Assembly (NCBI GenBank): GCA_027486345.1
Contig: JAIXPH010000024.1
Location: 1 to 41,570 of the forward strand
Direction: 5' to 3'
Length of the DNA: 41,570 nt
Source: Paracoccaceae bacterium
GTDB lineage: Bacteria > Pseudomonadota > Alphaproteobacteria > Rhodobacterales > Rhodobacteraceae
Made by a program: the position numbers and the translations under genes. Below the pieces are notes generated by a model that worked only from the letters and a program-made list of their open reading frames with translations, did not search any database and was not told where the DNA came from. Positions 1,543-11,276 of the stretch are shown here, one piece after another. The first letter of the stretch is position 1. Every line of letters begins with the position of its first letter.

Positions 1543-3216
1543 ATGTTCAGCCCTTTTTTCCTGCGACTGGCCGGCACGGCCCTGTGCGGCATCCTCACAG
1601 CGGGGGCGGCCATGGCGGACGGAGCCTTTGATGCGGCCTTGCGGCTGGACCCGGCTGCTTTCGTCCCGGTGACGGTCACGCTGGACGGCAAGCCCTTGGC
1701 GCTGCGGCGGTATGAGGCTGTCTATGTCGGCAAGCCCGTGGCGATGGCGGCGGAGCAGCCCGCACGGCGGATGGGGCCGGGGGGCAGTCCGTCGGGCGCG
1801 GAGACTCAGGCGCTGGTCGATCCCCTGACCTATCAGAAACTGGCGATCTTTGTGCCCGAAACCGCTCGCACCCAGTCCGCGATGATCCTGAACGTCAACA
1901 ACGGCGGCTGGTTCGCCAGCGAATTGCGGCCCGGCATCACCGATGGCGGGGCCTATGTGTCGGACAGCGACACCGACAAGGTCGGCGCGGCCTTGGCGGC
2001 GGGCTATGTCTATGTCGATGTGGGCAGCCGGGGGCGCGGAATCGTCGCCGCCGATGGCAGCCTGCCCGGCAAGGCCCCGGCGGCGGTGGTTGATGCCAAG
2101 GCGGCGATCCGCTTTCTGCGCCTGAACGATGCTGTCTTGCCCGGATCGGCAGAGCGGATCGTGATCACCGGCACGTCGGGCGGGGGCGGGTTGTCGTCGG
2201 TCGTGGCTGCGAGCGGGAACAGCGCCGACTATCTGCCATTCCTGGCCGAAATTGGCGCGGCGGGTGTGGCGGCGGATGGGTCCAGCAGCCTAGCCGATGA
2301 CGTCTTTGCCGTGATCGCCTATTGCCCGATCGTCGATCTGGGCCATGCCGATCTGGCCTATGAATGGCTGTTCGACGGTATCCGCAGCGCCGACAACACT
2401 GCCGACGGGCGCTGGCCTGCGGTGGCGCAGGCGGCTTCGGCAGAATTGGCGGCGGGCTATCCGGCCTATCTGGATGGGTTGGGTCTGACGCTGGCCGATG
2501 GCAGCCCGCTGACCTCTGCCACGATGAAAGCCGCCATCGCCGCCGAAGTGCAGCGCACGGTGGAGCGGCACCTTGCCAGCGGCGGCACGGTCCCGGTGAT
2601 GGGAGAGGCGTTCGACATCACCCTGCGCCATCCGGGCGGAGAGGATCAGATATCAGTGCCGAATGACTGGCTGACGGTCGAAGATGGCAGGGTGACGGAC
2701 CTGAACCTTGACGGTTTCCTGCGGTTTGTCACCGCGACGGCGGCACTGAAACCCGTGCCCGCCTTTGACCGCACGGCGAATACCGGCAATCCGGGGGTGG
2801 ACGGCGAAAACAGCCTCTTTGGAGCTGCGACGCAGCCCTATGCCAACTTCACCGCCTATGGTTGGGCCGCCAATGAGGTGGCGGGGGATGGCTCAGGTGC
2901 AGATGACACCGGGCAGGACTGGGCGACCTATGCGGCGGGCGAAGGGGCGGCACTGGCGGCACAGGTGCGCTTGACCAACCCGATGGCCTATCTGGGCACC
3001 GACGCCAAGGCCGCGCCACATTGGTATATTCGTCACGGGATGATCGACCGGGACACGTCATTTGCCGTGGAACTTTCCTTGGCTGCCGCTGCGCGGGGTG
3101 ATTCCGATGTGAAATCCGTCGATTTTCACCTGCCGTGGATGACCCCCCATTCCGGGGATTATGACGTGCAAGAGGCCTATGGCTGGCTGAAGGGCGTTCT
3201 GGCACAAGGCAACTGA
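1543..3216 (+). CDS. Secreted alpha/beta-hydrolase, subtype B tannase-like esterase
   Basis: 557 residues with a GGAGG site about 12 bp before the ATG. An N-terminal signal peptide ends near AGAAMADG, so the protein is exported. The nucleophile elbow is GTSGGGG with Ser212. The likely catalytic acid is Asp502 in HGMIDRDTSF and the base is His536 in TPHSGDYD. This Ser/Asp/His order and the RHGMIDRDTSF block are characteristic of subtype B bacterial tannases, which hydrolyse gallate-type esters. The protein is about 90 residues longer than the well-known Lactobacillus enzyme. The substrate cannot be read from sequence and another bulky ester is possible. It lies divergent from pstS. Its stop is only 8 nt before the leader hairpins of the amide operon, so read-through into that operon is possible. 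Confidence 0.72.
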   Translation: MFSPFFLRLAGTALCGILTAGAAMADGAFDAALRLDPAAFVPVTVTLDGKPLALRRYEAVYVGKPVAMAAEQPARRMGPGGSPSGAETQALVDPLTYQKLAIFVPETARTQSAMILNVNNGGWFASELRPGITDGGAYVSDSDTDKVGAALAAGYVYVDVGSRGRGIVAADGSLPGKAPAAVVDAKAAIRFLRLNDAVLPGSAERIVITGTSGGGGLSSVVAASGNSADYLPFLAEIGAAGVAADGSSSLADDVFAVIAYCPIVDLGHADLAYEWLFDGIRSADNTADGRWPAVAQAASAELAAGYPAYLDGLGLTLADGSPLTSATMKAAIAAEVQRTVERHLASGGTVPVMGEAFDITLRHPGGEDQISVPNDWLTVEDGRVTDLNLDGFLRFVTATAALKPVPAFDRTANTGNPGVDGENSLFGAATQPYANFTAYGWAANEVAGDGSGADDTGQDWATYAAGEGAALAAQVRLTNPMAYLGTDAKAAPHWYIRHGMIDRDTSFAVELSLAAAARGDSDVKSVDFHLPWMTPHSGDYDVQEAYGWLKGVLAQGN

Positions 3217-3224
3217 GGTGGCTT

Positions 3225-3318
3225 TGCCCGGATTTTGGGCATCTGCCCGGCAAAGGGCAATTCCACCGATCAGCACGGGCGACTGGACCAAACAGGTCTT
3301 GCGCCATCGCCCGTGCTG
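3225..3318 (+). promoter_or_regulatory. Structured leader RNA of the amide operon (candidate ANTAR target)
   Basis: Two consecutive small hairpins share the same 5-bp stem. TGCCC/GGGCA pairs at 3225-3229 with 3237-3241 (7-nt loop) and again at 3244-3248 with 3255-3259 (6-nt loop GGCAAA), with a 2-nt linker. A 12-bp perfect stem follows (3271-3282 with 3307-3318) whose loop holds a smaller GACC/GGTC hairpin. Next comes the terminator at 3359-3399. Two adjacent small hairpins upstream of a terminator is the layout of known ANTAR-protein target RNAs. The loops do not show the A1/G4 pattern reported for those RNAs, so binding by the AmiR-like protein is inference. Confidence 0.5.
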
Positions 3319-3358
3319 CGCCATGCTTTCCTGACAACATCATCACTTTGGCAATCAC

Positions 3359-3399
3359 GCCCCGACCGCAGCGACGTTTTGGCTGCATCGGGGCTTTTT
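3359..3399 (+). terminator. Leader terminator (attenuator) before amiC
   Basis: GCCCCGA at 3359-3365 pairs with TCGGGGC at 3388-3394. An inner GCAGC (3368-3372) pairs with GCTGC (3382-3386), and TTTTT follows at 3395-3399. The terminator lies just 20 nt before the chosen GTG start of the amiC-like gene. It would stop transcription of the whole amide operon unless bypassed, and an antitermination protein (AmiR family) is encoded by the second gene of the operon. Confidence 0.78.
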
Positions 3400-3418
3400 G
3401 CGTTTTCGGGGGCGCGGC

Positions 3419-4510
3419 GTGACCAAGCGGCGGATCGGGATCGGATTGCTCTACTCGCGGTCAGGAAGCTATTCCCTGATCTCGGAAGCGTGCCGATCTG
3501 GTGCGCTTGCGGCAATTGCCACCGTGAACGCCGACCCGGACCGCGATCTGGCTTTTGTCCCGGTAGAGCGTGATCCGCAGGGCAATGTCGATCTTTACGG
3601 CCCGCTGTGCGAAGAAATCCTGCGCGACACGCCCGCGCGGCATGTCATCGGCTGCGTGACGTCGTGGAGCCGCAAAGAGGTGATCCCGACGCTGGAACGC
3701 CATGGCGGGACGCTCTGGTATGCCGTGCCCTATGAGGGGTTCGAGGCCTCCGATCACGTCGTCTATACCCATGCCTGCCCGAACCAGCATCTTCTGCCGC
3801 TGCTGGATTGGGTAATGCCCGCACATGGGCGCAAGGCCTATCTGACCGGGTCAAATTACATCTGGGGCTGGGAGGTGAACCGCCTTGCCCGTGAGCGGAT
3901 CACGCAGGCCGGGGGGGAGATTGCTGGGGAACGCTACCTGCCCATCGGGTCGCGCGATGTCGGGCGGATGATCGACGAAATCCGCTATGCGCGGCCGAAT
4001 TTCATCCTGAATTCGCTGATCGGGCCCTCGTCCTATGAATTCCTAGCCGCTTACCGCGATCTGGGCCAGCGCGACCCGCATTTCCTGCCGCAGACCTGCC
4101 CGGTCCTGTCCTGCAACATGACGGAATGCGAACTGCCCGCTATCGGCCCCGCTGCCGAAGGTCTGGTAGCGGCGGGACCGTATTTCCGGGGGATTGATGG
4201 CTGGCCGGACGCGGGGCGGTTCGGCTCCTCGCATGAGGCAGCGGCCTATGTCGCGGTGCTGGAATTGGCGCGTTTGCTGCACGGCCATCCGGGGGCCGAG
4301 GCCCTGCCTTTGTCGCAACTGGTGGCGCAACGCGGCGCGGGCGGGATCATTGATCCTGAGACGCATCACACCGTTTTGCCTGCGCTGATCGCGCGGGTCG
4401 AAGGCGGTGCCTTCCGCCTGCTGCATCGCCGTGCCGGGGTGGCGGGAGATCCGTATCTGACGCGGGGGACATCCGCTGTCATCGCACCGCAATTGCGGGT
4501 GGTGTCATGA
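3419..4510 (+). CDS. amiC: AmiC-like amide-sensing periplasmic-binding-fold regulator
   Basis: 363 residues from a GTG at 3419 preceded by GGGGG. An upstream TTG at 3398 is in frame but falls inside the terminator T-tract, so it is rejected. The protein has no signal peptide and begins with IGIGLLYSRSGSYS. It matches Pseudomonas AmiC along its length: IGLLFSETG there is IGLLYSRSG here, VGCYMSHTRKAVMPVVER is IGCVTSWSRKEVIPTLER, and PYEGFEYSPNIVY is PYEGFEASDHVVY. AmiC is a cytoplasmic protein with the branched-chain-amino-acid-binding fold. It binds small amides and otherwise sequesters the antiterminator AmiR. The stop overlaps the next start by 4 bp (ATGA), as expected for a stoichiometric regulator pair. 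Which amide is bound is unknown. Confidence 0.85.
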   Translation: MTKRRIGIGLLYSRSGSYSLISEACRSGALAAIATVNADPDRDLAFVPVERDPQGNVDLYGPLCEEILRDTPARHVIGCVTSWSRKEVIPTLERHGGTLWYAVPYEGFEASDHVVYTHACPNQHLLPLLDWVMPAHGRKAYLTGSNYIWGWEVNRLARERITQAGGEIAGERYLPIGSRDVGRMIDEIRYARPNFILNSLIGPSSYEFLAAYRDLGQRDPHFLPQTCPVLSCNMTECELPAIGPAAEGLVAAGPYFRGIDGWPDAGRFGSSHEAAAYVAVLELARLLHGHPGAEALPLSQLVAQRGAGGIIDPETHHTVLPALIARVEGGAFRLLHRRAGVAGDPYLTRGTSAVIAPQLRVVS

Positions 4511-5106
4511 GACGCCCGATCCGCATCCCTACCCTTGGCGGCGCGCGGGCGGTGATCCTGCATCGCCCCCATGCCACGGTGCAGGCGCTTTTGCGTCAGT
4601 TGCACGCCATCGGGCTTGAGGTGACGCAAGCCTGGCCTGAGGCAGGGGCCGAGGCGTTAGGGGCCGATTACCTGTTTTTTGACGCCGACATGGGCCATGA
4701 TGGGCTGTTCCCTTGGCCTGCGGGTCAGCCGCCAATGCCGCTGATTGCCCTGATCGGGTCAGAGGCTCCGGGCCGGATCGAATGGTCGTTGCGGGCGGGG
4801 GCGCATGCGCAATTGCTCAAACCCGTGGGGGATAATGGGGCCTATTCGGCGCTCTTGATCGCGCGGGATGCCTTTGACGCGCAAAAGGCGCTGTCGGCAG
4901 AGATTGCCGATCTGCGGCGGCGGCTGGATGGGCGGCAAACCGTGGTGAGGGCGGTGACTCTGCTGGCGACGCTGGGCAAGACCGAAGAGCAGGCCTATGC
5001 CCAATTGCGCCAGATGGCGATGGCGTGGCGCATCAGCTTTGAGGATGCCGCCGCCCGCATCGTCGCCATGCGGGACGGGCCGGAACCGGGGGTGCAGGAT
5101 GGTTGA
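4507..5106 (+). CDS. amiR: AmiR-like ANTAR-domain transcription antiterminator
   Basis: 199 residues. The N-terminal ~120 residues resemble a degenerate receiver domain (AVILHRPHATVQALLRQL, then GADYLFFDADMGHDG). A coiled-coil stretch (about 120-135) leads to the C-terminal ANTAR three-helix domain (VTLLATLGKTEEQAYAQLRQMAMAWRISFEDAAARIV). This is the AmiR architecture: an RNA-binding protein that prevents terminator formation in a leader transcript and is held inactive by AmiC. The gene overlaps amiC by 4 bp and the downstream permease gene by 8 bp. The probable target is the terminator at 3359-3399 that precedes its own operon. Confidence 0.85.
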   Translation: MRRPIRIPTLGGARAVILHRPHATVQALLRQLHAIGLEVTQAWPEAGAEALGADYLFFDADMGHDGLFPWPAGQPPMPLIALIGSEAPGRIEWSLRAGAHAQLLKPVGDNGAYSALLIARDAFDAQKALSAEIADLRRRLDGRQTVVRAVTLLATLGKTEEQAYAQLRQMAMAWRISFEDAAARIVAMRDGPEPGVQDG

Positions 5107-5980
5107 TATCTCTGCCCCTGTCGCAGCACCGAAGGGTGCGTTGAAACGCCTGATGGAACGGCGCTTGGCGCTGCTGGGTCTGGTCCTGATCGTGCTGGTG
5201 GTGGGGGCGGCGGTCCTGGCCCCGTGGATCGCGCCCTATGCGCCCGAAGAGCAGTTGTTCGACGGGCTGACGCTGGAAGGTGCGCCTTTGCCGCCCGATG
5301 CGCGGTTCATCATGGGGACGGACCTGCTGGGCCGCGACCTGTTCAGCCGCATCCTGTATGGCGCGCAAACCTCGCTGATCATCGGGGTGGTGGCGAATGG
5401 GTTGGCGCTGCTGATCGGCACGCTGGTCGGGCTGGTCGCGGGGTTCTTTCGCGGCTGGGTTGGCGCGGTCTTGATGCGCTTTACCGATCTGATGATGGCC
5501 TTTCCGGCGCTCTTGCTGGCCATCTGTCTGGCGGCGATCTTCAAGCCGTCGCTCTGGATCGTGGCGCTGGTGATTGCCTTGGTGAACTGGGTGCAGACCG
5601 CACGGGTGATCTATACCGAAACCACATCGCTGGCCGAACGTGATTTCATCGCGGCCGAACGCACCTTGGGCGCAAGCACGGGCCGTATCCTGTTCCGCCA
5701 CATCCTGCCGCATCTGGTGCCGACGATCATCGTCTGGGGCACCTTGGGGATTTCAACAACCGTGCTTTTGGAGGCAACGCTGTCCTTTCTTGGCGTGGGG
5801 GTGCAACCCCCGACGCCAAGCTGGGGCAACATCATCTTTGAAAACCAGACCTATTTCCAAGCCGCGCCTTGGCTGGTGTTCATCCCCGGGGCTGCGATCA
5901 TCCTGCTGGCGCTGGCCTTCAACCTTGTGGGCGACGCGCTGCGTGATGTGCTTGATCCGACGCAAAGGGGGCGCGACTGA
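5099..5980 (+). CDS. Dpp/Opp-type ABC transporter permease (DppC-like)
   Basis: 293 residues from the ATG at 5099, overlapping the end of the antiterminator gene by 8 bp. The open frame extends upstream, but that part is a shadow of the antiterminator gene. A cytoplasmic N-terminus (LMERRLALLGLVLIVLVV) leads into the first transmembrane helix. The loop MGTDLLGRDLFSRILYGAQTSL is a hallmark of DppC/OppC, and the EAA-type ATPase contact loop is at RDFIAAERTLGASTGRILFRHILPHL. About six membrane helices are expected. With the next gene it forms the inner-membrane channel of a peptide/nickel/opine-family importer. Here the DppC-type gene precedes the DppB-type gene, the reverse of the usual order. 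Confidence 0.88.
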   Translation: MVDISAPVAAPKGALKRLMERRLALLGLVLIVLVVGAAVLAPWIAPYAPEEQLFDGLTLEGAPLPPDARFIMGTDLLGRDLFSRILYGAQTSLIIGVVANGLALLIGTLVGLVAGFFRGWVGAVLMRFTDLMMAFPALLLAICLAAIFKPSLWIVALVIALVNWVQTARVIYTETTSLAERDFIAAERTLGASTGRILFRHILPHLVPTIIVWGTLGISTTVLLEATLSFLGVGVQPPTPSWGNIIFENQTYFQAAPWLVFIPGAAIILLALAFNLVGDALRDVLDPTQRGRD

Positions 5981-6900
5981 TGCCAGCTTACCTTTTGCGG
6001 CGGCTGTTCCAATCGGCGCTGATCCTGCTGGGCATCAGCTTTGTCACCTTCCTTTTGCTGTTCGTGCTGCCCGCCGATCCCGTGCGCCAGATTGCCGGAC
6101 GTTCTGCCACGCCGGCAACGGTTGAGAATATCCGTCAGCAACTCGGCCTCGATCAGCCTTTCATCGTGCAATACGGGCGCTATCTGGGAAATCTGCTGCA
6201 GGGCGATCTGGGCCGCAGCTATCTGCAAAAGACCCAAGTGACCGAGTTGATCCTGTCGCGCCTGCCCGCAACGCTGCAACTGATGGCGGCGGGGATTTTG
6301 GCGGAACTGGTCTTGGGCCTGACCATGGGCATCGCCGCCGCGCTGATGCGGGGGCGGGTGGGGGATCAGGTCTTGATGATGGCGTCCTTCGTCACCGTAT
6401 CGGCCCCGCAATTCGTGGTCAGCCTGCTGCTGCTGTACGTCTTTGCGGTCAAGCTGGGCTGGTTCCCCATCGGCGGCTACGGCACGCTGGCCCATCTGGT
6501 GCTGCCTGCGGTGACCTTGGGCATCCTCGGCTCTGGCTGGTACAGCCGGATGATGCGGTCGAGCATGATCGAGGTGCTGCGCGCCGACTATATCCGTACC
6601 GCACGCGCCAAGGGGCTTGGCCGCGGGCGGGTGGTGCTGCGCCATGCCCTGCCCAACGCGATCTTGCCGGTGATTGCGATGATCGGCATCGACATCGGCA
6701 TCTTCATGGGCGGCATCGTTGTCGTCGAATCCGTTTTCGGCTGGCCGGGGATCGGCCAGTTGGCATGGCAGGCGATCCAGCGTGTGGACATCCCCATCAT
6801 CATGGGCGTCACGCTGGTATCGGCCCTGGCCATCGTGATCGGCAACCTGATTGCCGATGTGATTGCCCCGTTGATCGACCCGCGCATCCGGTTGCGCTGA
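5980..6900 (+). CDS. Dpp/Opp-type ABC transporter permease (DppB-like)
   Basis: 306 residues; the start overlaps the previous stop by one base (TGATG). The N-terminus (MPAYLLRRLFQSALILLGISFVTFLLL) is the typical first helix of DppB/OppB, followed by the periplasmic loop with ENIRQQLGLDQPFIVQYGRYLGNLLQGDLGRS. The ATPase contact loop is RADYIRTARAKGLGRGRVVLRHALPNAILPV. It pairs with the DppC-like permease. Because it sits among a binding protein, an amidase and an AmiC/AmiR pair, the imported substrate is probably an amide or amidated compound rather than a general dipeptide, but that is inference from context. Confidence 0.88.
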   Translation: MPAYLLRRLFQSALILLGISFVTFLLLFVLPADPVRQIAGRSATPATVENIRQQLGLDQPFIVQYGRYLGNLLQGDLGRSYLQKTQVTELILSRLPATLQLMAAGILAELVLGLTMGIAAALMRGRVGDQVLMMASFVTVSAPQFVVSLLLLYVFAVKLGWFPIGGYGTLAHLVLPAVTLGILGSGWYSRMMRSSMIEVLRADYIRTARAKGLGRGRVVLRHALPNAILPVIAMIGIDIGIFMGGIVVVESVFGWPGIGQLAWQAIQRVDIPIIMGVTLVSALAIVIGNLIADVIAPLIDPRIRLR

Positions 6901-6932
6901 CCACACCAAGAAGAACCAACAGGAGAGAACAG

Positions 6933-8540
6933 ATGAAAAAATGGCTCGCGTCCACCGCCCTTGTCCTGTCGCTGGCACTGCCTGCGGCGGCGCAGGATTA
7001 CACGCCCGATCCGAACGCCAAGGCAGGCGGCACGATCACCATCACCTACAAGGATGATGTAGCCACGCTGGACCCGGCGATCGGCTATGACTGGCAGAAC
7101 TGGTCGATGATCAAGTCGCTGTTCGACGGGCTGATGGACTACGTCCCCGGCACCACCACGCTGCGCCCCGGTCTGGCGGAAAGCTATGAGATTTCCGAGG
7201 ACGGCCTGACCTACACCTTCAAGCTGCGCGCCGGGGTGAAATTCCACAACGGCCGTGAAATGACGGCTGAAGATGTGAAATACTCGCTGGGCCGCGTCAC
7301 TGATCCGGCCACCCAATCGCCGGGCGCGGGGTTCTTCGGCTCCATTGCCGGGTTTGACAAGGCCGGGCCGGATGGGCTTTCGGGGGTTGAGGTCGTCGAT
7401 CCGCTGACCGTGAAGATCACGCTCAGCCGTCCGGATGCGACCTTCCTGCATGTCATGGCGCTGAACTTTGCGAGCGTTGTGCCGAAAGAGGCGGTCGATG
7501 CCGCAGCGGGCGATTTCGGCAAAATGCCGGTCGGCACCGGGGCCTTCAAGCTGGCGGAATGGACGCTGGGGCAGCGGTTGGTGTTCGAAAAGAACGCCGA
7601 TTACTGGCGCGCGGGCGTGCCCTATCTGGACGGTGTGGTGTTTGAGGTCGGGCAAGAACCCGTCGTCGCCCTGTTGCGCTTGCAGAACGGCGAAGTTGAC
7701 GTCCCCGGCGACGGCATTCCACCCGCCAAGTTCCAAGAGGTGATGGCCGATCCGGCCCAAGCCGCGCGCGTCGTGGTCGGCGGGCAGTTGCACACGGGCT
7801 ATATCACGCTGAACGTCACCACCCCGCCGTTTGACAAGGTGGAAGTGCGCAAGGCCGTCAACATGGCGATCAACAAGGACCGGATCGTCCAGATCATCAA
7901 TGGCCGCGCCGTCCCCGCCACCCAGCCGCTGCCGCCGTCGATGCCGGGCTACACCGAAGGATACGCCGGTTACCCCTTTGACGTCGAAGGGGCCAAGAAA
8001 CTGCTGGCCGATGCCGGTCTGCCCGACGGGTTTGAGACCGACCTTTACGTGATGAACACCGATCCGAACCCGCGCATCGCGCAGGCGATCCAGCAGGATC
8101 TGGCGGCCATTGGCGTGAAGGCCAACATCCAGTCGCTGGCGCAGGCCAACGTGATCGAGGCGGGTGGCGCAGGCACCGCACCGATGATCTGGTCGGGCGG
8201 CATGGCGTGGATTGCGGACTTCCCCGATCCCTCCAACTTCTACGCGCCGATCCTTGGCTGCGCGGGCGCGGTTGAGGGCGGCTGGAACTGGTCCAAGTTC
8301 TGCGACCCGGCCTTGGACGCCAAGGCGACCGAGGCTGACAGCGTCAGCGACCCCGCCGATCCGGCCCGTCTGGCCAAATGGTCCGAGATCTATCAGGGCG
8401 TGATGGAACAGGCCCCGTGGGTGCCGGTGTTCAACGAAGAACGCTACACCATGAAGTCCGAACGCATGGGCGGCGAGGACGCGCTTTATGTCGATCCGGT
8501 CTCGATCCCGGTCAACTATGACTACGTCTATGTGAAATAA
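6933..8540 (+). CDS. Family 5 extracellular solute-binding protein of the amide ABC importer
   Basis: 535 residues from the ATG at 6933, with an AGGAGAG site just upstream. A Sec signal peptide (MKKWLASTALVLSLALPAAAQD) is clear. The mature part carries SBP_bac_5 features: LDPAIGYDWQNWSMIKSLFDGL near the start, GLTYTFKLRAGVKFHNG with the NGREMTAEDVKYSLGRV block, and VRKAVNMAINKDRIV in the middle. It captures the substrate in the periplasm for the two permeases upstream. The small 32-bp gap and matching strand place it in the same operon. The family binds peptides, nickel, opines, amides and other solutes, so the ligand is not determined. Similarity to the family is unmistakable. Confidence 0.9.
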   Translation: MKKWLASTALVLSLALPAAAQDYTPDPNAKAGGTITITYKDDVATLDPAIGYDWQNWSMIKSLFDGLMDYVPGTTTLRPGLAESYEISEDGLTYTFKLRAGVKFHNGREMTAEDVKYSLGRVTDPATQSPGAGFFGSIAGFDKAGPDGLSGVEVVDPLTVKITLSRPDATFLHVMALNFASVVPKEAVDAAAGDFGKMPVGTGAFKLAEWTLGQRLVFEKNADYWRAGVPYLDGVVFEVGQEPVVALLRLQNGEVDVPGDGIPPAKFQEVMADPAQAARVVVGGQLHTGYITLNVTTPPFDKVEVRKAVNMAINKDRIVQIINGRAVPATQPLPPSMPGYTEGYAGYPFDVEGAKKLLADAGLPDGFETDLYVMNTDPNPRIAQAIQQDLAAIGVKANIQSLAQANVIEAGGAGTAPMIWSGGMAWIADFPDPSNFYAPILGCAGAVEGGWNWSKFCDPALDAKATEADSVSDPADPARLAKWSEIYQGVMEQAPWVPVFNEERYTMKSERMGGEDALYVDPVSIPVNYDYVYVK

Positions 8541-8541
8541 C

Positions 8542-9501
8542 ATGTGCAAGGCCTGCAACTACACGATCCACGGCGCGCAGCATCATTTCGGCTGGGACAA
8601 TTCCTTTGCCCCGGTGGTGCGCGCCGAGCCGGGATCGACGATCCTGTTTCACTGCAATGACTCATCGGCGGGCCAGCTTGGCCCGTCGTCGACCGTAGCG
8701 GATGTGGTCAATCTGGACTTCGGCAAGATCAACCCGGTCTCGGGCCCGATCTATATCGAGGGCGCAGAACCCGGCGACGCGGTCAAGGTCACCATCGAAA
8801 GCTTTGCCCCGCGTGCCTTTGACGGGGCGGGCTTTGGCTGGACGGCGAACATTCCGGGTTTTGGCCTATTGGCTGATCAGTTCACCGAACCGGCGCTGAA
8901 GGTCTGGAAATACGATCCCGCCACAATGGAACCGGCGCTGTGGTCCGATGTGGCCCGCGTGCCGCTGAAGCCCTTTGCCGGGACCATCGGCAATGCGCTG
9001 GCCGAGCCGGGGCTGCACTCCGTCGTGCCGCCGCGCCGGGTGGGCGGGAACCTCGACATCCGCGACCTGAACGCGGGGACCACGCTTTATCTGCCGGTTG
9101 AGGTGGCGGGGGCGCTGTTCAGCGTCGGCGACACCCATGCCGCCCAAGGCGACGGCGAGGTCTGTGGCACCGCCATCGAAAGCCCGATGGATGTTGTCCT
9201 GACCCTCGATCTGGTGAAAGGCGCCAACCTGAAAACCCCGCGTTTCACCACGCCGGGGCCGGTGACGCGCCATCTGGATGCCAAGGGCTATGAGGTGACG
9301 ACCGGCATCGGTCCTGATCTGATGAGCGCAAGCCGCGATGCGGTGGCGAATATGGTCGACTTCCTTTGCGCCTCGCGCGGGATGGCGGCGGTGGATGCCT
9401 ATATGCTGGTCTCCACCTGCGGCGATCTCAGGATTTCCGAGATTGTGGATATGCCGAACTGGGTGGTCAGCTTCTACTTCCCGCGCTGCGTTTTCGAATG
9501 A
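8542..9501 (+). CDS. Acetamidase/formamidase family amidohydrolase
   Basis: 319 residues; the ATG lies one base after the previous stop. The protein belongs to the FmdA_AmdA family: an early HHFGWDNSFAPVVRAEPGSTI block, the FGKINPVSGPIYIEGAEPGD segment, GGNLDIRDLNAGTTLYLPVEVAGALFSVGD, and the family signature GDTHAAQGDGEVCGTAIES. It has no signal peptide, so it acts in the cytoplasm. Members hydrolyse formamide or short aliphatic amides to ammonia and the acid. It belongs to the shorter group (about 310 residues) rather than the ~410-residue fungal/methylotroph enzymes. Between the importer and an AmiC/AmiR pair it is the likely catabolic enzyme of the operon. It overlaps the next start by 4 bp. 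Confidence 0.9.
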   Translation: MCKACNYTIHGAQHHFGWDNSFAPVVRAEPGSTILFHCNDSSAGQLGPSSTVADVVNLDFGKINPVSGPIYIEGAEPGDAVKVTIESFAPRAFDGAGFGWTANIPGFGLLADQFTEPALKVWKYDPATMEPALWSDVARVPLKPFAGTIGNALAEPGLHSVVPPRRVGGNLDIRDLNAGTTLYLPVEVAGALFSVGDTHAAQGDGEVCGTAIESPMDVVLTLDLVKGANLKTPRFTTPGPVTRHLDAKGYEVTTGIGPDLMSASRDAVANMVDFLCASRGMAAVDAYMLVSTCGDLRISEIVDMPNWVVSFYFPRCVFE

Positions 9502-10772
9502 CGCAGGCGCTGCAAACCTTGTCCGGGGCCGAATTGGCCCCGGATGCTGCGCCGGTCATGACCGTGCAGGGGCTGACCGTCTCGGTGCGTACCGAAGGCG
9601 GTTTGCGGCCATTGGTTCAGGATTTGTCCTTTACCCTGCGCAGGGGAGAGACCTTGGCGATTGCCGGGGAAAGCGGGTCTGGCAAATCCATCACCTCACT
9701 GGCCATCATGGGCTTGCTCCCGCCGCCTGCGGTGCGGGTGACGGCGGGGCGGGTGCTGCTGGGCGCGACCGATCTGACCGCGCTGCCGGAATCTGCCCTG
9801 CGCCGGGTGCGCGGTGACCGGGTGGCGATGATCTTTCAGGAGCCGATGACCAGCCTGAACCCGGTCCTGACCGTGGGGATGCAACTGGCCGAGGCGATCC
9901 GGGCCCATCAAGACGTCAGCCGGGCCGAAGCGCGCCGTCGCGCCTTGGAGGCGTTGACGGCTGTGCGCCTGTCGCAACCCGAACGGCGGATGCTGCAATT
10001 CCCGCACGAACTGTCCGGCGGGATGCGCCAGCGGGTGATGATCGCTATGGCCTTGGCAATGCGGCCGGAGGTGCTGATTGCCGATGAACCCACCACCGCC
10101 TTGGATGTGACCGTGCAACGCGAGGTCTTGGACCTTCTGCGCGACCTGCAACGCGACCTTGGCACCGCGATCATCCTGATCACGCATGACATGGGCGTGG
10201 TTGCCGAAATGGCCGACCGCGTGATCGTGATGAAATCGGGCCGCATGGTCGAAGAGGCGCGGGTGACGGACCTCTTCGCCGCCCCGCAGGCCCCCTACAC
10301 GCGCGACCTCTTGGCCGCCGTGCCGCGCATGGGACAGCGGGTAGAGGTGGCAGTGCCTGCCCCCTCTGACGCCGTGGCAAGGCTGTCGGATGTGGTCGTG
10401 CGCTTTCCGATCAAGGGCGGGCTGCTGGGCCGCACCACGGCGCAGGTCCATGCGGTGGAGCATGTCAGTTTCGACATCCGCAAGGGTGAGACCTTTGCCT
10501 TGGTCGGCGAATCCGGCTGCGGCAAATCCACCATCGCCAAGGCGATGGTCGGTCTGGTGCCGCATCAGGGGCGGATTGAGGTTGGTGGGCAGACCCTCTC
10601 CCCCCTTGGCCACGACGCGCCGAAATCGCTGCGCCGCAAGGTCCAGATGGTGTTTCAGGACCCCATGGCCGCACTGGACCCGCGCATGCGCGTGGGCGAT
10701 CTGATCACTGAGCCGCTGTTGATCCACGGCATTGGCACCGCCCAAGACCGCCGCGATGCAGCAGCAGAGTAG
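9498..10772 (+). pseudogene. Fused DppD-DppF-type ABC ATPase, N-terminal piece ending at an in-frame TAG
   Basis: 424 residues from the ATG at 9498, which overlaps the amidase stop (ATGA). The first ATPase domain is complete: Walker A GESGSGKS, Q-loop IFQEPMTSLNP, signature LSGGMRQR, Walker B LIADEPTTALD and H-loop THD. The second domain begins normally with Walker A GESGCGKST and Q-loop FQDPMAALDPRM. It then stops at TAG (10770-10772) in the helical region before the signature motif. The same frame continues without a gap at 10773 with the missing half, so an intact gene would encode 592 residues, the usual size for fused two-domain ATPases of this family. One base change (for example TTG or CAG to TAG), a sequencing error, or a tolerated split could each explain it. 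It would energise the upstream permeases. Confidence 0.72.
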
Positions 10773-11276
10773 ATGCGGCGGGTGGGTCTGTCACAGGATC
10801 AGCTTGACCGCTTTCCGCATGAATTCTCCGGCGGGCAGCGCCAACGCATCTGCATCGCCCGCGCGCTGGCGCTGAAGCCCGACCTCATCATCGCGGATGA
10901 AAGCGTGTCGGCGCTGGATGTCAGCGTGCAGGCGCGGGTTCTGGCGCTGCTGAAGGAATTGCAGGACGAAATGGGCGTGGCCTTCCTGTTCATCAGCCAT
11001 GACATGGCGGTGGTGGACGGCATCTCGGACCGGGTGGCGGTGATGTATCTGGGCCAGATTGTCGAAATGGGCCGCCGTGCGCAGGTGTTCGGCAACCCGC
11101 AGCACCCCTATACCCAACGTCTGATCGAGGCGGTCCCCGTCCCCGACCCCACCCACCGCCGCGCACCCTCGGCCCGGCTCGGCGGCGATATCCCCAGCCC
11201 GGTGCATCCCATCGGCGGTGGCCCTGACCGAGTGGTGCTGCGCGACATCGGTGAGGGGCATCTGGTGGCGGGGTGA
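10773..11276 (+). pseudogene. C-terminal piece of the split ABC ATPase
   Basis: 167 residues in the same frame as the preceding piece, starting at an ATG that directly follows the TAG. It contains the second domain's signature FSGGQRQR, Walker B LIIADESVSALD, the SHDMAVV H-loop and the C-terminal oligopeptide-transporter extension (NPQHPYTQRLIEAVPVPDP). It lacks Walker A, so it cannot hydrolyse ATP alone. There is no good ribosome site before the ATG. Translation could come from termination-reinitiation at TAGATG. If both pieces are made they might reassemble; otherwise the importer has only one working ATPase domain or none. Confidence 0.7.

Follow-up and report, generated by a model that had tools for sequence, protein, structure and literature searches.

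A putative AmiC/AmiR antitermination leader with a single conserved hairpin before a probable amide-uptake operon of Rhodobacteraceae

RESULTS

A candidate AmiC/AmiR-controlled amide-uptake operon

The window, by which we mean the whole stretch of 41,570 nucleotides (nt) analyzed here, is one contig (JAIXPH010000024.1, assembly GCA_027486345.1) of the 4.08-Mb draft genome of a Paracoccaceae bacterium. Positions 3225–11276 hold a leader followed by genes for an AmiC-like sensor, an AmiR-like antiterminator with an ANTAR domain, a Dpp-type importer, and an FmdA-type amidohydrolase. We think it quite probable, from comparison of this leader with those of its relatives, that this is an autoregulated amide-uptake operon under AmiC/AmiR antitermination and that a single leader hairpin, P2, suffices for control in the clade to which the window belongs. 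The control would thus be of a known kind, AmiC/AmiR-ANTAR antitermination, in a variant form that has an altered loop code and, within this clade, just one hairpin. An earlier sequence-only reading of the window had proposed such antitermination at the operon’s own leader, and conservation supports that proposal.

In the proposed mechanism, RNA polymerase would start just 5′ of P2. When no inducer is present, AmiC would retain AmiR, and the terminator at 3359–3399 would halt transcription before AmiC. A small amide bound to AmiC would lead to the release of AmiR, whose ANTAR domain would then bind the P2 loop (3350–3361); bound P2 would keep its 3′ arm out of the terminator stem, so that AmiC, AmiR, the importer, and the amidohydrolase would be transcribed. 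In many relatives the RNA would begin with a second, variable hairpin (P1), 2–3 nt before P2. P1 is gone in the window clade, and one ANTAR hairpin would therefore have to suffice there.

A conserved hairpin shares its 3′ arm with the terminator

A scan of genome contigs gave 102 AmiR relatives, of which the best 80 (L033–L112) were retained, making 81 loci with the window. The AmiC start could be placed in 78 of them, the window included (L053, L090, and L111 were dropped). P2, the candidate antiterminator hairpin and proposed AmiR binding site, reads GGC-AATCAC-GCC at 3350–3361 of the forward strand. It surfaced only through the leader alignment, and the sequence-only reading, which listed other leader elements, had omitted it. 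The pattern GGC-A-N5-GCC occurs within 230 nt upstream of AmiC in 77 of the 78 loci, where shuffles predict 2.3, and within 160 nt in 76, where they predict 1.5; only in L112 was it not found within 230 nt. Because the A at loop position 1 (A1) formed part of this pattern, we separately counted every GGC-N6-GCC match in the 160 nt before AmiC; 77 had A at that position and 15 another base. At loop position 4, 62 loci have C, 9 have A, 5 have T, and 1 has G (n = 77; C in the window), and position 5 is a purine in all 77.

The intrinsic terminator occupies 3359–3399 of the forward strand, and the 3′ arm of P2 serves as its foot; the two structures are therefore mutually exclusive. The earlier claim of a terminator with a T-run before AmiC therefore holds: the stretch 3358–3399 folds at –23.5 kcal/mol, a stability reached by none of 200 shuffles, and compensatory changes are seen across relatives. 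A T-rich tract follows a stable stem directly 3′ of P2 in 75 of 77 loci, the exceptions being L050 and L051. By script, the 3′ arm of P2 lies inside the terminator stem in 71 of 77 loci; for L055, L101, L107, and L108 the script took in too much sequence, and the fold obtained opens with the same pairs. For covariation we used 64 aligned leaders of 75, six over-long ones and five near-duplicates having been omitted. Standard pairs fill 84.5% of the terminator pair cells, whereas slid controls never exceed 48.3%. The score for covariation is 0.402 versus 0.205 in shuffled alignments, with 0 of 500 shuffles scoring as high. The leader thus has the six-base-loop hairpin overlapping a terminator, the A1, and the intrinsic terminator before the controlled genes that are expected of an ANTAR antitermination leader, and lacks the G at loop position 4 (G4).

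Leader alignment and weighted hexamer scoring place a putative –10 element, CATGCT, at 3322–3327 and a putative –35 element, TTGCGC, at 3299–3304, 17 nt apart on the forward strand; they were the best pair by hand-set weights. Transcription would then start near 3333–3335, about 16 nt 5′ of P2. Across the relatives, TTGAC lies 25–80 nt 5′ of P2 in 57 of 77 loci, versus 2.5 in shuffles.

The upstream hairpin P1 is variable and absent from the window clade

In 58 of 76 scored loci P2 is preceded by a hairpin with four or more pairs, and in 52 of the 58 the gap between the two is 2–3 nt. The loop of this hairpin, P1, has four to eight bases and no consensus. The window has neither P1 nor a second, upstream A1/G4 hexaloop, at a place where many relatives carry the variable hairpin. 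Taken singly, just 19 of the 76 P1 regions have a fold that beats 95% of their own shuffles. In a fixed frame, the P1 stem has 59 cells changed on both sides versus 42 in shuffles, and 2 of 500 shuffles were as high. In an unselected frame just 52% of cells pair, because the P1 loops differ in length and rows without P1 were retained; there, pairs with changes on both sides are not above shuffles (498/500), and a +1 slide outscores the frame on covariation (0.220 versus 0.189), which we read as the register with a six-base loop.

We then placed P1 on a midpoint-rooted tree that was built from six proteins and comprises 69 loci; 67 of these loci were labeled for P1. Judged by eye, P1 is absent in 16 of the 67, which needs at least six changes; four rule-based labels gave 17, 18, 20, and 25 P1-less loci and 7–10 changes. 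The window falls inside a ten-locus clade (support of 99 in the Shimodaira–Hasegawa-like approximate likelihood ratio test, SH-aLRT) that is P1-less in all ten members under every label. Midpoint rooting itself does not give direction, and it is because P1 is present in more distant loci that we infer loss rather than gain. The –10 element and P2 are separated by a median of 22 nt in the 16 P1-less loci, 15 of which fall at 15–26 nt, and by a median of 29 nt in the remaining 61, of which 50 fall at 25–32 nt. Excision of P1 would leave such a difference.

A leader that lacks P1 and G4 and whose P2 stem has only three pairs could be read as a constitutive attenuator at which AmiR no longer acts in the P1-less lineages. 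We consider this unlikely, as P2 and the terminator are retained across the whole ten-locus clade and as AmiR there is under strong purifying selection: the ratio of nonsynonymous to synonymous substitution rates (dN/dS) is 0.02–0.09 for AmiR and 0.04–0.11 for AmiC (over six pairs for either protein, dS being saturated in some). Nor is there a convincing second leader of this kind among the scored candidates of the genome on which AmiR might act instead. With model R1 the window leader scored E 1.3e-7 and the next match in its own genome E 1.55, with 150 of 9,682 first-look candidates scored and a rough calibration; AmiR probably acts at this single leader.

Another possibility is that a second hairpin is still active, with transcripts beginning further upstream and a 12-bp hairpin (3272–3317, forward strand; inner part GGACC-AAACA-GGTCT) replacing P1. 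The stretch 3217–3333, between a tannase-like gene and the promoter, does fold far beyond its shuffles (z –5.1) and was recognized only in the window and in L033 and L034, where the AAACAGGTCTTGCGC stretch is retained; in L035 a hairpin of different sequence starts 67 nt 5′ of P2. The 12-bp hairpin spans the putative –35 element, however, its outer arms are by eye just partly retained in L034, and the best hairpins of the other clade members lie at varying places. It also stands about 50 nt from P2, whereas EutV no longer acted in vitro once the hairpins were set 20 nt further apart (PMC8934654). We therefore regard such a stand-in for P1 as improbable and favor the reading in which P2 acts alone.

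The loop code and the ANTAR residues that would read it

In EutV, Lys149 together with Arg142, Glu160, and Tyr164 handles G4 (PMC8934654). We defined the lysine position by the P. aeruginosa AmiR lysine, taken as equivalent to EutV Lys149 in an alignment without EutV itself. Among the 81 AmiR rows this position holds Val in 76 and Ile in 5. The window AmiR retains Glu160, Tyr164, Arg168, and Met172 at those numbers and has an Arg at 143; Arg143, Arg168, and Met172 are invariant over the 81 rows, and at position 164 there are 69 rows with Tyr and 10 with Trp. The loss of the lysine and the loss of G4 would fit together without being strictly linked. Forty further loci were fetched for this link, and 19 showed a leader before AmiC by the patterns used. 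A strict link was rejected: G4 occurs with Lys in the close kin L187–L189 but with Val in L192 and L196. The 14 leaders of the 19 without G4 all belong to AmiRs without Lys. Some Lys-bearing AmiRs (e.g., L158, L170, and L190) showed no leader before AmiC by the same patterns and were left unscored. L187–L189 each have two candidate A1/G4 leaders, one before AmiC and one 3′ of AmiR.

It seems to us evenly balanced whether, in an alphaproteobacterial ANTAR family, the RNA code shifted from A1-G4 to A1-C4-purine5, P1 was freed from sequence recognition and dropped in several lineages, that of the window among them, and one three-pair hairpin therefore suffices for antitermination.

Several observations weigh against antitermination by AmiR at P2. 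G4 is missing from the loop, and the ANTAR lysine taken to contact it is replaced in 81 of 81 rows. Alone, the window P2 folds at –3.6 kcal/mol, and 142 of 200 shuffles are as stable. Nine of the 12 terminator pairs are changed on both sides, which is not above shuffles (181/500). The window hexamers TTGCGC-17-CATGCT, chosen by hand-set weights, are weaker than the TTGAC of the relatives, and a consensus scan of 3150–3450 listed no promoter; it did not list the terminator either, because its loop limit of 8 excludes it. Under strict filters, model R1 gave a match at E 0.1 in 17 of 61 relatives; a few weak matches (E 0.0026–0.08) were not traced to AmiC loci, and G008, which encodes an AmiR, gave no match at E 0.1. 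EutV, finally, needed both hairpins in vivo (PMC3369931, PMC8934654). We count on the other side that NasR binds a single P2 hairpin, weakly (PMC7496416). A search of Rfam at gathering thresholds gave no match in the window, and a scan for A1-G4 hexaloops on stems of four or more contiguous pairs found no site common to the 78 scanned leaders (of 81; three skipped).

Hairpins further upstream are probably outside the regulated RNA

The sequence-only reading had placed the switch in two small hairpins with identical stems (3226–3240 and 3245–3258, forward strand) and in the 12-bp hairpin, as an ANTAR target within 3225–3320. Two equal-stem hairpins do precede the terminator, as such a target would have it. 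The small ones are at chance level, however: GCCC-N6-GGGC occurs twice in the window versus 4.2 times expected, and 33 of 200 shuffles of 3217–3262 fold equally well. The 12-bp hairpin is stable (z –4.1) but lies outside the conserved leader. Neither kind forms an A1/G4 hexaloop, and among 31 aligned relatives and ten clade members both were recognized only in L033 and L034, two metagenome-assembled genomes of Rhodobacteraceae (PARR1 and H1_MAG_00043, respectively) that are the nearest relatives of the window. Because these hairpins lie upstream of or across the putative promoter and are confined to the nearest genomes, they are probably not part of the regulated leader RNA, and we think it very improbable that the hairpins at 3225–3260 and the 12-bp hairpin are the ANTAR target.

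Gene content and conservation of the operon

The gene identities given in the sequence-only reading were confirmed, and the genes are tightly packed on the forward strand. The AmiC-like sensor (3419–4510; PF13433, 3.6e-73; P. aeruginosa AmiC, PDB 1pea, 1.5e-35) has no signal peptide visible by eye and is probably cytoplasmic. It adjoins the AmiR-like antiterminator (4507–5106), with AmiR_N (PF21332) and ANTAR (PF03861) domains and a match to PDB 1qo0_D AmiR at 9.1e-10, so that the two form an AmiC/AmiR pair. Both regulator genes lie 3′ of 3359–3399 and hence behind the terminator, as proposed; in P. aeruginosa, too, the AmiC and AmiR genes lie in the operon that they control. Domain matches identify a DppC/OppC-type permease (5102–5980, start codon uncertain) and a DppB/OppB-type permease (5980–6900), which are followed by an SBP_bac_5 solute-binding protein (6933–8540; PF00496, 5.6e-102) and the FmdA_AmdA-type amidohydrolase (8542–9501; PF03069, 4.1e-58; PDB 5ubu and 2ii1). 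The control module is thus joined, as claimed, to an FmdA-type amidohydrolase and a Dpp-type importer.

The order AmiC-AmiR-DppC-DppB-SBP-FmdA is found in 62 of 68 related loci (L033–L100). In L034, L053, L075, and L083 the final genes are missing on short contigs and the order is intact until there; L095 and L096 have a differing arrangement, with FmdA directly 3′ of AmiR and then a distant Dpp set. Among L101–L112, an AmiC match lies just 5′ of AmiR in 11, the best AmiC match of L111 being on the opposite strand, and the Dpp-like genes are mostly more distant. The arrangement is not peculiar to the source genome, being widespread among Rhodobacteraceae and found in Phyllobacteriaceae as well.

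The last gene encodes a fused DppD-DppF double ABC ATPase, whose first piece (9498–10772) terminates at an in-frame TAG at 10770–10772. The rest of the second ATPase domain (PF00005 positions 97–135 and oligo_HPY) follows at 10773–11276. The frame is uninterrupted in 62 of 62 testable relatives (68 looked at), and the TAG, which the sequence-only reading did not mention, could stem from a sequencing error or from a recent loss. If it is a true loss, the importer of this strain would be without a complete second ATPase domain.

Just upstream of the leader region, 1543–3216 encodes a subtype B tannase (NCBIfam, 431 bits; cut-off, 300). A second ANTAR protein is encoded on another contig of the source genome (L001, 14175–14333) and gives a stronger match (E 2.1e-21); as a guess, it is NasT.

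The inducer may not be formamide or acetamide

Formamide or acetamide had been suggested as the inducer, and two lines of evidence weaken that suggestion. At the positions aligned to P. aeruginosa AmiC Tyr83, Thr106, and Tyr152, which we take to touch the amide ligand, the window AmiC has Val, Val, and Trp. Position 106 also differs between PDB 1qnl and 1pea in the alignments, 1qnl being, we assume, an inducer-specificity mutant of AmiC. Two rhizobial versions of the operon, L102 and L110, have an AmiC-AmiR pair followed by a hydrolase of the proline iminopeptidase family (TIGR01250; 260 and 258 bits, respectively; cut-off, 168) and a Dpp-type importer; L102 additionally encodes FmdA. The L110 hydrolase matches PDB 7a6g at 4.6e-138. 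This entry is listed as a putative proline iminopeptidase, and we take it to be an L-proline amide hydrolase, for which a literature search gave no support. The window FmdA-like protein belongs to the family (PF03069, 197.5 bits versus a gathering score of 27) and scores 125.4 bits against the NF045496 formamidase equivalog, for which the cut-off is 500. Formamide, moreover, should require no peptide-type importer. Given that importer and the hydrolases of L102 and L110, the operon’s substrate might be an amino-acid or peptide-like amide rather than formamide, a suggestion that we make tentatively.

DISCUSSION

The leader and its genes resemble the P. aeruginosa amiE system in having an AmiC sensor, an AmiR_N-ANTAR protein, and a hairpin before an intrinsic terminator (PMC3369931). 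They differ in the genes controlled, an FmdA_AmdA enzyme and a Dpp-type importer in place of the nitrilase-type AmiE, in the residues aligned to AmiC Tyr83, Thr106, and Tyr152, in the ANTAR Lys-to-Val replacement, and in the A1-C4 loop; P1 has no conserved hexaloop and is absent in the window. The dual-hexaloop leaders bound by EutV and NasR share with this family the six-base P2 loop, its closing C-G pair, A1, and the 3′ arm common with the terminator. Their P1, in contrast, is an A1/G4 hexaloop (PMC3369931, PMC8934654, PMC7496416), whereas here G4 occurs in 1 of 77 loci and P1 has a loop of variable length or, in 16 of 67 tree loci as judged by eye, is lacking. The amidohydrolase shares the family domain and a GD-HA-x-GDGE stretch with acetamidases-formamidases of the FmdA/AmdA family (5ubu and 2ii1), while its score falls well short of the NCBIfam cut-off for formamidase.

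A published survey accepted only leaders with A at position 1 and G at position 4 in both loops (PMC3369931) and would therefore probably have missed this leader family. Judging from titles and the starts of abstracts, we recognized no work in the open-licence PMC literature on this operon or on a single-hairpin ANTAR antitermination leader.

Why ANTAR leaders have two hairpins is described as an open question in PMC8934654, which itself raises single-hexaloop binding sites. If the reading given here is true, the family would offer a natural experiment on why the known ANTAR leaders require a pair of hairpins, and closely related operons with and without P1 would permit the need for both to be tested directly. 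For the organisms themselves, the operon points to an amide-uptake route that is common in Rhodobacteraceae.

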